Virus record (IMG/VR): IMGVR_UViG_3300012017_001120
Coordinates: 1-34,126 of that record
Direction: 5' to 3' (one strand)
DNA from: a virus
Length of the DNA stretch: 34,126 nt
Shown here: piece after piece, positions 88 to 34,126 of the stretch
Numbering within the stretch: the stretch's first letter is position 1
How the letters are laid out: each line of letters opens with the position of its first letter
Notes under the pieces: model-generated
The model's database searches: none
Told to the model about the DNA's origin: nothing
What the model saw: only the letters and a program-made list of their open reading frames with translations
Translations under genes and position numbers: made by a program

Positions 88-780
88 ATGGCAATTATCC
101 CAAGTACAGAGCAATTTATTGGCATCTCGCCAAATGTAAACACTTCTGAAAGAAGGTCTGCATTAGTAAATTCAGACAGCGAACCATATACAATGCAAGA
201 CTTTATTGACACCATTGGTCCCGGGCAAGTGGGTCCTCAAGGTCCGGTAGGTCCTCAAGGTCCTGCAGGAACAAATGGTTTGTTTGCTCAAACTGCTTTA
301 GGAGCACTTATTACTAATACTACTGTAGAAACTTCATTAATAGGAGCAGGAGTAGGTACTTTATCAGTGCCTCCCAATACATTTCAAGTGGGGGATAGTT
401 TTGCTGCTAGACTTTGTGGATATTTATCTTGTGCAAATAATGCAACAATTCATATTAGAGTAAGGTCTGATGGTACTGTTATAGCAGATGCAGGTATATT
501 TTCTATGAAGATAACAACAAATAAATTTTTTGAACTTAATATAGATTTTACAGTTACTAAAATAGGAGTAGCAGGAGTTGCTGAGTTATTTACAAATGGT
601 CAGTATAGTTATAATCATAATTCACAAGGTGAAATAGCAGCAAATAACTTTGCTTCAGTTACTACTACTATATTTGACACTACTGTCCTTAATGCTTTAT
701 CTATTACAGCTGAATGGGGTGCAGCAAGTGCTAATAACAAAATTCAATCTCAAAACTTTGTATTAACTAAAGTATATTAA
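88..780 (+). CDS. Short collagen-like tail fibre or receptor-binding protein
   Basis: This 230-residue protein has three visible parts. Residues 1-45 form an anchor-like segment (IPSTEQFIGISPNVNT, PYTMQDFIDTIG) that also starts the next gene. Residues 45-62 are a short Gly-X-Y collagen-like run (VGPQGPVGPQGPAG). The remainder is a beta-rich C-terminal domain with many Thr, Ala and Asn residues and no recognised catalytic motif. The layout of particle anchor, collagen-like rod and distal beta domain is typical of phage tail or capsid fibres, so a role in host-surface contact is likely but inferred. It has its own promoter-like box 13 bases upstream. Compared with its neighbour it has a very short collagen tract and no chitin-binding-like modules. 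Confidence 0.7.
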   Translation: MAIIPSTEQFIGISPNVNTSERRSALVNSDSEPYTMQDFIDTIGPGQVGPQGPVGPQGPAGTNGLFAQTALGALITNTTVETSLIGAGVGTLSVPPNTFQVGDSFAARLCGYLSCANNATIHIRVRSDGTVIADAGIFSMKITTNKFFELNIDFTVTKIGVAGVAELFTNGQYSYNHNSQGEIAANNFASVTTTIFDTTVLNALSITAEWGAASANNKIQSQNFVLTKVY

Positions 781-859: not shown

Positions 860-2827
860 ATGCCTACTATCCCAAGTTCAGAACAATTTATTGGATTGTC
901 ACCAAATGTAAACACTACCGAGAGAAGGTCAGAGTTAATAAATGCAGAGAGTTTTCCATATACAATGCAAGACTTTATTAATACTATTGGAGCAGGTTCG
1001 GGTCCTCAAGGTCCACAAGGTCCTCAAGGTCCTCAAGGTGTTCAAGGTGTTACAGGCAGTCAAGGCCCTGCAGGAACTGTAGGAGCTACAGGCAGTCAAG
1101 GACTACCGGGCCCAACGGGTGCTACGGGAGCTACGGGAGCTACGGGAATAGTAGGTCCTCAAGGTGTTCAAGGATTACAAGGATTTCAAGGTGTAGCCGG
1201 AGCAGTGGGCCCTGCGGGATTAAATTGGCAAGGTGGATGGTCTGCTTTAGGCGTTTATGTAATTGATGACGCAGTAGGATATGGTGGGGCTTCTTGGTTT
1301 TGTATAAATAATATTGGGCCTGTTCCTACTACTCCTAATTTAGACCCAACTCATTGGTCATTACTTGCATCGCAAGGTGCAGTTGGTCAACAAGGTGCTC
1401 AAGGTATTCAAGGTATTCAAGGTATTCAAGGCCCTGCCGGTGCAGCAGGATTGCAAGGTGCTCAAGGACCGATAGGTTTAACGGGTGCTACAGGTGCAAC
1501 GGGTGCAACGGGATTGCAAGGCCCACAAGGTGTGGCCGGAACAAATGGAACGCAAGGTCCAATTGGACCAATAGGTGCTACAGGTGCCACGGGTGCTCAA
1601 GGTATTCAGGGTGCTCAAGGTACAGCCGGTACAGTTGGTCCTGCGGGATTAATATGGGCAGGCACTTGGAGTGCTTTAGGTGTTTATGTATTAAATAACG
1701 CCGTTTCTTTTGGAGGCGCTAGTTATTTTTGTTATAACCCTGCAGGTGTAGGTCCTTCAGCATCAAACCCTACGGTTGATACTCCTAATTGGGCGTTACT
1801 TGCATCGCAAGGCGCAACAGGAGCAGCAGGAGCAGCAGGAGCAGCAGGAGCAGCAGGTCCGGCAGGGGCAACAGGTCCTCAAGGAATTGCAGGAGTTGCG
1901 GGTGCTACAGGACCTCAAGGTTCTACGGGAGCAACAGGAGCAACAGGTCCTCAAGGAATTCAAGGCGTAGCGGGACCAATTGGCCCTGCAGGATTAACTT
2001 GGGTTGGTGTTTGGAGTGCTTTAGGGGTTTATGTACAAAATGAGGCTGTATCTTTTGGTGGTGCAAGTTATTTCTGTTATAATCCTGCAGGTGTAGGTCC
2101 ATCAGCGACAGACCCTTCACTTGATACTCCTAATTGGGCATTGCTTGCTGCAGTTGGAGCTACAGGTGCAACGGGTGCGGCAGGAGTAGCGGGTGCTACA
2201 GGTCCGGCAGGTCCGGCAGGTGTTGCAGGTCCAACAGGACCACAAGGAGTTCAAGGAATACAAGGAATACAAGGAGTACCTTCAGCAACTTTTTCTGCAG
2301 TTAATTTTAGTCCGCTACCTATTTTCCCAATATTTACTGAATGGGTGACTGATGTTATTACCATTCCTGCAAATACATTTGATAGTTTCTCAGAAGTGGT
2401 TTTAAATTTAGTAGGGCAAATAAGTAAAAATACTGTTTTTGAGAAATTTACATATAAGATATACTTAACCGATACGCCACAAGTTATTGATACACTTTTT
2501 GATAATGCTAATTTTCCAATTAACATGGTAGAGGCAAAAACAGGAGATGCTGCACAGCTAACAACTAAGTTAGAAAGGTCTTTTGCAATAGGCGGGAATG
2601 ATGTTTTATATTTTCAGAATAATCTTACTGCTACTTCAAATTCTGATAATGCAGTATTAGCATCAACACCATTATATACTGCTACTTATTTTAATAATGT
2701 TCCTAAGCTTGCTTCAACGATACATGGTACAAGCATTGATTGGTCTTTGGATTGGTATATAGCAGCTGTGGTAATTTCAGAAGATGTTAATGAGGCATTT
2801 ATAGAGAGATGGATTTCACTTAAATAA
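860..2827 (+). CDS. Large collagen-like tail fibre with three CBM5/12-like modules
   Basis: This 655-residue fibre starts with the same roughly 45-residue anchor as the preceding gene (IPSSEQFIGLSPNVNT, PYTMQDFINTIG). Long Gly-X-Y collagen-like stretches ([20 protein letters not shown]) follow. They are interrupted three times by a compact module at about residues 120-171, 263-316 and 378-431. Each module reads WSALGVYV, then A-V-x-x-GGAS-W/Y-FC, then NWALLA. The Trp, Tyr and Val pattern resembles carbohydrate-binding modules of the chitinase CBM5/12 type. The last 180 residues form a non-repetitive beta-rich tip. It probably binds a surface glycan of the host, which is inferred from architecture. 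The repetitive codons create several spurious open frames on both strands. No chaperone or peptidase motif is seen in the tip. Confidence 0.78.
   Translation: MPTIPSSEQFIGLSPNVNTTERRSELINAESFPYTMQDFINTIGAGSGPQGPQGPQGPQGVQGVTGSQGPAGTVGATGSQGLPGPTGATGATGATGIVGPQGVQGLQGFQGVAGAVGPAGLNWQGGWSALGVYVIDDAVGYGGASWFCINNIGPVPTTPNLDPTHWSLLASQGAVGQQGAQGIQGIQGIQGPAGAAGLQGAQGPIGLTGATGATGATGLQGPQGVAGTNGTQGPIGPIGATGATGAQGIQGAQGTAGTVGPAGLIWAGTWSALGVYVLNNAVSFGGASYFCYNPAGVGPSASNPTVDTPNWALLASQGATGAAGAAGAAGAAGPAGATGPQGIAGVAGATGPQGSTGATGATGPQGIQGVAGPIGPAGLTWVGVWSALGVYVQNEAVSFGGASYFCYNPAGVGPSATDPSLDTPNWALLAAVGATGATGAAGVAGATGPAGPAGVAGPTGPQGVQGIQGIQGVPSATFSAVNFSPLPIFPIFTEWVTDVITIPANTFDSFSEVVLNLVGQISKNTVFEKFTYKIYLTDTPQVIDTLFDNANFPINMVEAKTGDAAQLTTKLERSFAIGGNDVLYFQNNLTATSNSDNAVLASTPLYTATYFNNVPKLASTIHGTSIDWSLDWYIAAVVISEDVNEAFIERWISLK
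1217..1372 (+). repeat. CBM5/12-like module, copy 1
   Basis: Residues 120-171 of the large fibre contain GGWSALGVYVIDDAVGYGG, then SWFC and HWSLLAS. This is the most divergent of the three copies in this gene (Gly-Tyr for Ser-Phe in the centre, His for Asn before the last Trp). Collagen-like repeats flank it on both sides. Confidence 0.6.
1646..1807 (+). repeat. CBM5/12-like module, copy 2
   Basis: Residues 263-316 contain GTWSALGVYVLNNAVSFGG, SYFCYNPAGVGPS and NWALLAS. It is nearly identical to copy 3 in its centre, which suggests recent duplication or gene conversion. Confidence 0.65.
1991..2152 (+). repeat. CBM5/12-like module, copy 3
   Basis: Residues 378-431 contain GVWSALGVYVQNEAVSFGG, SYFCYNPAGVGPS and NWALLAA. 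It is followed by a last collagen-like segment and then the unique tip domain. Confidence 0.65.
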
Positions 2828-6253: not shown

Positions 6254-7243
6254 ATGGGAAAAATAAGTAGCTATACAATTATATCAACGCCTACATTAAA
6301 CGATAAGTTAATTGGAACTGATGTAACTCCAAACAATGAAACTAAAAATTTCTTAGTTAGTGATTTATTGGCATTGGGAGTTGGTGGAACAGGGGCTACA
6401 GGCCCTCAAGGTCCACAGGGAATTGCAGGAGTAACAGGAGCCCAAGGTGTTCAAGGTGTTCAAGGTGTTCAAGGAGCAATTGGACCAATAGGTCCCGCGG
6501 GATTGAATTTTCAAGGTGTTTGGAGTGCTTTAGGTACTTATGTAAATGATGATGTTGTATCCTTTGGTGGAGCTTCTTATTTTTGTTATACAGCAGGCGT
6601 TGGACCATCAGTGTCAAACCCTGTAATAGACACAGTTAATTGGGCGCTTTTAGCAAGTATAGGTGCAACGGGTCCTACGGGTCCGGCGGGTGCTCAAGGT
6701 ATTCAAGGATTAACGGGCGTTCAAGGTCCACAAGGAGTTACGGGTGCCACAGGTGCTACGGGGCCTATAGGTCTTACAGGTCCTACGGGAGCTACGGGAG
6801 CTACGGGAGCAGCAGGGGCAGGTGGTGTAACAACTGCAGGAACTAATATATCAATAACAGGATTAGGGACATTAGTAAGTCCTTACATTGTTAATTCTAC
6901 AGTTCCATATACAATATATAAGGCTTTAGTTTCTGTTTCGGGTGGTATTTTTACGGTAATACAATTAGAAAATACAATTGGTGATGGAAGTAATGTTAAT
7001 CCCGCAGATATTGAATGGAGCAATCCTACTAGCGGAAGTTTAATCGCAACTAAAACAGGTGCATTTTCATCTTCAAATGTCTTTATAACTGCTCCAAGTA
7101 TGCAGGAATTAAATATTCCTTATATTCTTACTCCATCTAAAATAGACTTAAATACAATCTTAATAAAAGTTTTTCTGTATGATGGAACTTCTGCATCTAC
7201 TCCAAATCTTACAGATATACCAATTGAAATAAGAATATATTAA
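6254..7243 (+). CDS. Collagen-like tail fibre with one CBM5/12-like module
   Basis: The 329-residue protein starts with [20 protein letters not shown], an anchor segment different from the two earlier fibres. I associate it with phage structural proteins (ISSYxxxxxPTLxDKLIGTD). Two collagen-like stretches flank a single module at residues 83-135 ([38 protein letters not shown]) that closely matches copies 2 and 3 in the large fibre. The last 130 residues are a beta-rich tip starting [20 protein letters not shown]. The likely role is a tail or capsid fibre that binds the host surface. The shared module across two genes separated by the lysis cassette points to recombination between them. Confidence 0.72.
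6500..6658 (+). repeat. CBM5/12-like module, copy 4
   Basis: Residues 83-135 of the third fibre repeat the module seen at 1217, 1646 and 1991, with the same Trp, Tyr, GGAS and FCY positions. One residue is missing in the loop (YTAGVGPS against YNPAGVGPS). Confidence 0.62.
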
Positions 7244-33500: not shown

Positions 33501-34126
33501 CTGCACTCAATAGTTTAAATAAACTAACATACGCAAAACTTGATGCAGGAGTTACAGTAGGAATATTGAAGGCTATTTTAAAGGGAATACGTGCAGGAGT
33601 TGTTGCAGGTAAAACATTTAATACTGCTGTTAGAGCAATGGCAACTAAATATAAAAATGAGCATAAAAATGAAAATATAACTATTGATGAGTTTATTGAA
33701 GAAATTAATGATTATTTAGATTCAACGTATGTTGACCCACAAGCTGATGAAGAGTCATTAGATAAAGATATTGATAAATTTACTACTGAAATTAAAAATG
33801 CAATAAGACAAGCTCAATCACAATCAAAAACCTTAAGAGAAAAAGCAGCTGCTAAAATTAAGGACATGCTCAAGGGTAAGTTTAAAAGTATATCAGCTGT
33901 TCACATGAGGTCAATTATGACAAGGCTTGTTAGTGTTAACGTGGAGAATCAAACTCAGTATGATAAGTTCTTAGAATACGTTGAGAAAGTAATTGAGATT
34001 ACAAACTATGATGCCAAGGTTAGAGAAGCAAATGTTAAAAGGAAAAAAGCTAAAGACAATACAATAGGCAATAACCCAAAACTTGGGGACCTTTCCCTTG
34101 ACTTGCTTGGTTCACTGTCACGAATG
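27590..34126 (+). CDS. Giant multidomain internal virion/ejection protein (partial, runs off the window)
   Basis: An unbroken frame starts at 27590 (MNDDAINDAYQMFSQGGYNG) and is open for 2179 codons to the last base, so the C-terminus is missing. Residues about 5-58 hold two copies of an AYxxFxxGGYxxxxxxFxxL repeat. Residues 662-701, 720-741 and 853-880 are hydrophobic and could enter a membrane (ALVGVAASLPSMLTRAIPVV, AFIAVPYAAVMGYLENLGI). Segments from about 1170-1290 and 1600-1750 are Ala/Pro/Glu/Val/Lys linkers. Residues about 1863-1965 are a long coiled coil, and 1968-2015 a Gly/Ala-rich helical segment (LKAILKGIRAGVVAGKTFN). Size, membrane segments and position third in the ejection set fit a T7 gp16-like role. 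No lysozyme, protease or RNA-polymerase DxDGD motif is seen in the visible part. Enzymatic domains may lie beyond the end. Confidence 0.7.
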   Translation, partial: MNDDAINDAYQMFSQGGYNGSIDNFKQLIASNPNALNDSYEIFKSGGYSDDIESFKTLMGVSNSFSNPFIKKKSPGGVSISADGSSESQGSESFMSMMGDIATKQIAEDKEKAKQLQATGFRKEMKDAEAIELSGKEQPLSKIYDEYDDFFNTKNQQATGVEAFIKSKARPKGRNDYNENVSFDLGLGIAVNDTRYRVKDGFWERLVQGDSKYEKITNASSISALNKRYDRDLSTDVAPIEVKPSVIDPFLIVNSDFLSKTEEDAQTVLENKFGDMGFEFKQAGAFTDYITVTPRNGADPMTFSFDEKSGDEAVRLQSFLRNNASAEKENYASTSNILNFVANNENPYGLDGYKKLFKDLTYLQKKEEITRRQKESAGFEFDDLSGIAGFAMGLIYDTEENKSKLAESAKKMQDELYNSEEYKLFKNEESKFEQQLEDRYSLLLDDYEIKQRNGDYEGARKAKLAIESGFSRNVIGDNITNLSNSQYDLMSAKNNLVAKETKLREQASKGLITQEQFDIGAEAILVESKKLAISAESVNSNQKKMNALAGMYMLEKAKYGNFGSNLWNSFVIGTDEVISAANYIRGSVDMRNMIGEEAKIGAQSRIITPQQKKYYEDKGYSEEEVKNILYNKAELSAIKANKKAVIERFGSDLTTEESKSKLGFVQNALVGVAASLPSMLTRAIPVVGQVAAFASMANMSYNAIEEEMLSDPDFETTTKGERAFIAVPYAAVMGYLENLGISKMTKGKSAILGKYILGNMAKALPKKMGREAVENIVNKEVKSLVGKGVLKVVAGGLAEGETGAMQTLFADIGMKKAYNSIRAAYTGEDLTELTGGEAFGTPQSFSEGALAVGEGALAEAIGGFAMSTVMVGAQGLATGKISLYNKDDLKFFEDFSSDEQFKKIIVTDLKTKMLEGTMTKSEAQAALNDIDLVAGVFNSIDENLPQGAKIEAFNLINEKRRLLIEIEGKDPALSKEKNDRIAEINTRLEELPSLVQEDNLADRASDIEYALGRGRGKSKTVRIDGKRVSREEAETELQTIITKIEENAIQKQTASEVLVQPTTTIGEEVVQGEPQTELEVITKEGEAQEQRFKDKEYLTAEETLNFSINNAKENIENRILRFQKSEHPSSEDWVKSEKEELNQLNENPLAYFESKLQQANERTTPWVEEIEHFEMIINEFKAVENAQAAPTQELAPVTQELVLEEVTPQPKKLTIREEMSLAAEKAQGKKGKAPRAARVRKAPVVTAPALEVEAAPIVVEPTQEAVVAPVVTAPVTEAKEGAPTKFSWDKIKEYTSEVIRSMRQLQFSKLNPLIELKKPSAAQIIEIKALQAKIKSADAVLNARENKIKEDEKKAEKGEPTDKSPRVSGVDQNGKPAEFVVVVNEKKQTAKVQLKKRGDSELARQKIESDLKIQTDDKGRKFVETQNKSRVYIDEKVTPPKAEVKAKVKTEAPVVEAKKEFIIDGKEYTEEEAIEISQNNYRIPNYGSKMEYNGSNPQAKEFVNNYNRNSSPYFRDGRLKGEYMKGKLSEALGSMSFRKFGNLYRKHIDPYFSRANNEKSVGGVVDNNFRFEDLATYIIGDSNPDTFEEADFRAFAKEAGIEIPAAPVTEVKVEAPKAKPVAEVKVEAPKVEPVVEPKAEPVKTTATNTEADIENERAAELKSKGVDRFFPEEINETAKQIEEREKKQKIQDEINERYDSKLAALDTQAKTETTKKPTAKAEPVVLNFNVKSTTRNGMETIITDDNSLRMGDEGQELSKLRRYGKTKHYINDGILGVIIEGFSMDGREGGRTIVNVKVPNGFNETIFEELVKGINYPAMTTVAETERVLAEIKDAIQKSIIAPAPATQATTETTKKSTVTTEDRMGVITSIKKDIEKTTEEIKKARAEARKAVNEIEAKILDTKNENKKEELQFDIEEIETQLEEDLEGLKDDLDRQIGMLKEEVESLKDLDLEKPENKKTLLSYIDGAIAALNSLNKLTYAKLDAGVTVGILKAILKGIRAGVVAGKTFNTAVRAMATKYKNEHKNENITIDEFIEEINDYLDSTYVDPQADEESLDKDIDKFTTEIKNAIRQAQSQSKTLREKAAAKIKDMLKGKFKSISAVHMRSIMTRLVSVNVENQTQYDKFLEYVEKVIEITNYDAKVREANVKRKKAKDNTIGNNPKLGDLSLDLLGSLSRM
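32420..32480 (+). repeat. 22-base direct repeat in a linker of the giant protein
   Basis: The 22-base sequence starting GTTAAAGTAGAAGCTCC occurs at 32420-32441 and 32459-32480, 39 bases apart and in frame. It encodes EVKVEAPK twice, followed by a third degenerate unit (EPKAEPV). It is a Lys/Glu/Pro linker repeat that can grow or shrink by recombination. Confidence 0.7.

Follow-up and report, generated by a model that had tools for sequence, protein, structure and literature searches.

The crAss-like phage PhicrAss001 carries a tail fibre, gp22, and a head fibre, gp21, which are trimeric and have short N-terminal docking segments, as proposed below for the fibre described here; residues 1–26 of gp22 dock in the tail hub (PMC10172136). 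Neither collagen nor carbohydrate binding is mentioned in that paper. The short tail fibre (STF) of Agrobacterium phage Milano, gp31, is a slender trimer with two 'bead-like globular domains' in its middle, formed by the stacking of three subunits. It contains the disulfides Cys84–102 and Cys127–144, and its fold was called novel, with no mention of collagen (PMC10811340). Carbohydrate-binding modules (CBMs) are known from other phage fibres. Glycan binding has been proposed for bead-like CBMs in the tailspikes of G7C (gp63.1) and others, with lipopolysaccharide (LPS) as the proposed ligand of gp63.1 (PMC13082707), while the annotated fibre CBM of A-1(L) gp80 is a case without host binding (PMC10966104).

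The protein described here belongs to a known kind, the beaded collagen-like phage fibre, of which it is a new example. A literature search on crAss-like phages together with collagen and carbohydrate binding yielded no description of such a fibre. Two annotated proteins resemble it closely. The tail fibre-like protein of the T4-like Dhakavirus JS10/IME08 (ADI55498.1) has a bead with 48–51% identity, the same GPAGL...LLASQG junctions and a collagen rod, but it has one bead only, a gene near hoc and an enterobacterial host. The tail fibre of a Flavobacterium elemo phage (QMP85843.1) has a bead with 49% identity within Gly-X-Y repeats and likewise a Bacteroidota host; it differs in its single bead, short rod and phage genus (Elemovirus).

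Genome context

The window, the whole stretch of 34,126 bases analysed here, is the virus record IMGVR_UViG_3300012017_001120, whose phage is crAss-like and of water origin. ORF 18848–24139 matches the crassvirus muzzle family (crAss_MUZ) with 38.9 bits against a cut-off of 27, and PHROGs for terminase, portal and virion structural protein stand in order in the window. On the basis of this muzzle gene and structural gene order, the combination by which Crassvirales are recognised, the window is assigned as a fragment of a crAss-like phage. Its fibre genes lie before the terminase, whereas those of PhicrAss001 follow the portal gene. A contig of another IMG/VR record (L007) shares 5,813 bases with the window, identical bar one difference, and likely represents the same virus population.

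By eye, the final ~300 residues of the muzzle ORF resemble several Cys-rich repeats (V.N.S...Y..C.G...C). Also by eye, one very long coding region rich in Glu, Lys, Pro and Ala occupies the + strand from ~27590 to the window end at 34126; it is likely to encode a virion cargo protein.

Architecture of the fibre protein

The fibre ORF and its two fibre-like neighbours contain the following features.

88 to 780, + strand: companion fibre protein, with an N-terminal segment as in ORF 860–2827, a brief run of Gly-X-Y repeats and another type of C-terminal domain
860 to 2827, + strand: collagen-like beaded fibre protein, 655 residues (Pfam Collagen, E 5.9e-39; PHROG 5073 'tail fiber protein', its best PHROG, E 7e-110)
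860 to 997, + strand: N-terminal segment of 46 residues, 74% identical to the start of ORF 88–780; likely docking peg
1001 to 1225, + strand: Gly-X-Y rod segment 1, 25 triplets
1214 to 1375, + strand: bead module 1, CBM5/12-like fold, residues 119–172
1376 to 1654, + strand: Gly-X-Y rod segment 2, 31 triplets
1643 to 1810, + strand: bead module 2, CBM5/12-like, sister of module 3, residues 262–317
1811 to 1999, + strand: Gly-X-Y rod segment 3, 21 triplets
1988 to 2155, + strand: bead module 3, CBM5/12-like, residues 377–432
2156 to 2281, + strand: Gly-X-Y rod segment 4, 14 triplets
2282 to 2824, + strand: C-terminal tip domain, beta-rich (pTM 0.79), fast-evolving; likely receptor-binding head
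6254 to 7243, + strand: second collagen-like fibre protein, with a different N-terminus and one bead (residues 82–137, window 6497–6664)

All four Gly-X-Y runs are long enough for a triple helix and in this sense collagen-like. The modules, of 54–56 residues, overlap the preceding run by four residues (AGLx) at each bead entry. An earlier sequence-only reading had placed a collagen-like rod interrupted by three related modules at 1217–2152, and this layout is confirmed with the boundaries given above. Of the motifs that it named, WSALGVYV and GGAS(W/Y)FC occur in all three modules, while NWALLA is limited to modules 2 and 3, with HWSLLA in its place in module 1.

Matches of the fibre to PHROG 22681 'DNA polymerase', which falls in a collagen segment, and to the NCBIfam Lcl and SclA/SclB adhesins, which reflect collagen composition and lie far under the cut-off, were discarded. 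The neighbouring genes share their 46-residue N-terminus (window 88–225 and 860–997) but differ in their C-terminal domains, which would suit two fibres that share one docking site or compete for it.

The module family

Sequence similarity among the modules is far above chance. Module 2 matches the other two beads of the fibre with E values of 4e-30 and 3e-18, and the fourth copy, in ORF 6254–7243, with 4e-23. An iterative profile search of the collected loci gave 240 module matches, 116 of them unique. Among the 140 modules with complete flanks, Gly-X-Y repeats lie upstream in 139 and downstream in 139, so that insertion into a rod is the rule. The junctions are near-invariant, with (G)PAGL at the entry and LLAxxG at the exit, and module columns are strongly conserved across the family. 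Fibres with a single bead are common (53 of 85 proteins).

Beads 1 and 3 represent two old classes, which keep their position across phages and differ in loop 31–41. The origin of bead 2 varies with the lineage, being either class 1 or class 3; for the window fibre, sequence comparison gives modest support to a class 3 origin. At the DNA level, two copies of a 300-nt unit (1556–1855 and 1901–2200) are 74% identical.

Relationship to CBM5/12

The resemblance to CBM5/12 chitin-binding modules, proposed earlier from the aromatic and glycine pattern, is borne out by profile searches and by the predicted fold. In searches with single modules, Pfam CBM_5_12 (PF02839) was matched by 29 of 34 at E values up to 1, at best 4.8e-6. 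The whole protein of ORF 860–2827 scores 19.8 bits, under the curated cut-off of 26.2, and the modules are therefore regarded as divergent members of CBM5/12. Searches with the module profile reach both the chitin-binding domain (ChBD) of ChiA1, with an E value of 2.3e-4, and the CBM of 4ilv, with 1.8e-4. ChiA1 is reached by the family profile only, a single-sequence PDB search with module 2 returning nothing.

AlphaFold predicts module 1 with a mean pLDDT of 83 in the best model and of 58–63 in the other four. In the best model, the bead has the small three-stranded beta fold of CBM5/12 and matches 1ed7 (ChiA1) in Foldseek with a TM-score by target of 0.76 and an rmsd of 1.6; 2d49 and other chitinase CBMs match as well. 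The PDB matches of this model all have E values above 0.001, which is not surprising in a domain of this length. Equally near folds are found in fibre chains of phages and injection systems, namely Anabaena CIS (7b5h), the A-1(L) tail fibre (8kec), Milano (8fqc), 7-7-1 (9rkv) and G7C gp63.1. The Milano match has an rmsd of 1.3 over 44 columns, and the two globular domains of that fibre would be the parts aligned to the bead. Within predicted viral structures, the top matches that carry a name are the tail fibre-like protein of JS10 and phage proteins with the annotation 'collagen repeat'. Because sequence profile and predicted fold agree, we assign the modules as CBM5/12 homologues.

The beads share with the ChBD of Bacillus circulans ChiA1 (1ed7, PF02839) both the fold and the motif W...Y...V.Y.G..Y.C...P...W.L. 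In contrast to that domain, they have an extra N-terminal strand, GLxWxG, and are inserted in a collagen rod, whereas the ChiA1 domain is appended to an enzyme.

The sugar-binding platform

ChiA1 W687, in the loop AGWEPS, we take to be the chitin-binding Trp of the sugar platform; no text on W687 as a binding residue was found in the literature. In the beads, the column aligned to W687 holds T, S or L, and this loop is free of Trp in all 113 modules examined. The matched solved CBMs displayed in the profile alignment all keep this residue. As judged by sequence alone, the exposed aromatic platform of the ChiA1 type, which goes with chitin or cellulose binding, is thus absent from the beads.

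Alignment to ChiA1 identifies W9, Y15, V21, F/Y23, G25, Y/W28, C30 and W49 as CBM5/12 signature positions. The aromatic and glycine pattern that had suggested sugar binding (W...Y...V.Y.G..Y.C and a terminal W) is present, but it is a pattern of the fold, the conserved Trp and Tyr appearing to occupy mostly fold positions. Two near-invariant hydrophobic residues of the phage family, W5 and F29 (Lys in ChiA1), lie outside this signature. Their conservation suggests an added packing face, and they are more simply read as contributing to packing between chains. Disulfide linkage through the invariant Cys was set aside, since the corresponding residue of ChiA1 is a Cys too, and its only one.

Selection on beads and tip

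Comparison of the window fibre with a relative (L008) gives a dN/dS of 0.92 for the tip, 0.20 for the modules and 0.07 for the collagen segments. The substitutions in modules and tip differ significantly (Fisher p 3e-4). The tip exceeds the modules in dN/dS in all 14 further pairs with usable values, and so in 15 of 15 overall; the further pairs were picked to cover sequence clusters and include some near relatives across pairs, so that the count is not strictly independent. The faster change of the tip places rapid host-driven change, and with it host-specific binding, at the tip, which is likely the receptor-binding head. Purifying selection on the beads also fits binding of a conserved ligand.

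A Foldseek search with the tip gave no clear relative. The matches are weak (TM-score by query 0.20–0.37), mostly to viral capsid jelly rolls and legume lectins, and a closer identity was dropped in favour of 'beta-sandwich' alone.

Proposed role of the beads

We consider it fairly probable that the beads are homotrimeric and knot, register and cap the collagen triple helix by means of a borrowed CBM5/12 fold. The protein of ORF 860–2827 would then form a rod-shaped homotrimeric fibre of the crAss-like virion; the trimeric state is proposed on the model of collagen and of solved phage fibres. The 46-residue peg would dock it to the virion, by analogy with crAss001 gp22 and more likely at the tail than at the head. 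The rod itself would be a Gly-X-Y triple helix of some 270 residues, ~78 nm long at 0.286 nm per residue. Within each bead, the three chains would co-fold into a trimeric knot, where one helix segment terminates and the next is brought into register; the knot would also add stability and create a defined swelling or hinge. The C-terminal beta-sandwich trimer would bind the host.

The loss of the platform Trp argues for such a knot over sugar binding. Gly-X-Y repeats on both sides of the modules, the near-invariant junctions, the fold matches among solved phage fibres, the packing face suggested by W5 and F29, the dN/dS contrast between tip and beads, and the fixed positions of beads 1 and 3 despite the turnover of bead 2 point in the same direction. 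Against it stand the higher dN/dS of the modules relative to the collagen segments, the low confidence of four of the five AlphaFold models and the LPS binding proposed for the bead-like CBMs of G7C gp63.1. The main competing explanation is that the beads are weak glycan-binding modules, with nine CBM5/12 sites per trimer giving avidity for a polysaccharide of the host surface through a non-classical site. Homology and fold are genuinely those of CBM5/12, the conserved aromatics W5, F29 and Y/W28 beyond the core pattern could form another site, loop 31–41 varies between bead classes, and the G7C-type tailspikes provide a proposed parallel. However, every module lacks the ChiA1-type Trp, the beads are under tighter constraint than the tip in each pair compared, and A-1(L) gp80 offers a precedent for a fibre CBM that does not bind the host. 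We therefore regard glycan binding as unlikely, if still deserving some weight. A more specific form, in which retooled beads bind a conserved Bacteroidota glycan through a trimeric W5/F29/Y28 site, making the rod a multivalent adhesin and leaving strain specificity to the tip, appears slightly more doubtful. The repeated weak sugar-binding sites that the sequence-only reading had envisaged for multivalent attachment along the rod are thus not supported, in view of the missing platform, the stronger purifying selection on modules than on tip, and the presence of trimeric fibre beads among the solved phage relatives. A sugar grip all along the beads is less likely than a role in holding the three-stranded fibre together.

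The beads might instead be docking sites for other phage proteins, or branch points for a second fibre (ORF 88–780 or 6254–7243). Several fibre genes occur in this one virus, two of them with a common N-terminal segment, and the trimeric beta modules XD2/XD3 of T4 gp10 and CBA120 TSP4 bind other trimers (PMC8825819). XD2/XD3 are jelly rolls, however, and thus of another fold, these beads recur in unrelated phages whose companion genes are unrelated too, and many fibres have a single bead; we hold this explanation to be improbable. Still less credible is a reading of the beads as passive spacers or as remnants of shuffled cassettes, retained since they leave the rod undisturbed. The turnover of the middle bead between class 1 and class 3 origins and the repeated 300-nt unit would agree with it, but the strong column conservation, a dN/dS well below 1 and the constant positions of beads 1 and 3 would not.

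An enzyme-associated sugar-binding fold has here been reused as a repeated element of collagen-like phage fibres, its sugar platform apparently lost. The label 'carbohydrate-binding module' on a phage fibre should not be taken to mean receptor binding unless the platform residue and the selection pattern are checked.

Distribution of beaded fibres

Beaded collagen-like fibres are widespread among phages. The carriers include crAss-like phages, T4-like Dhakavirus, Flavobacterium elemo phages, and contigs binned as Cytophagales and others. Of 16 carrier records, 11 are crAss-like; among them are all nine checked records longer than 69 kb, each with the crassvirus muzzle gene. Distant blastn comparison with named phages gave collagen-like, low-coverage matches only. 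Environmental crAss-like phages are mostly uncultured, and the tip is the part of the fibre to look at for host range.

In IME08, the beaded collagen-like gene (L005, 3758–4945) is flanked by gene 24b and rnlB, in the vicinity of hoc and apart from the long tail fibre genes; its product may be a head fibre. Several bead-bearing contigs (L114–L123 and L129) are binned with genomes of Algoriphagus, Spirosoma and other Cyclobacteriaceae, a hint at the hosts of those phages.
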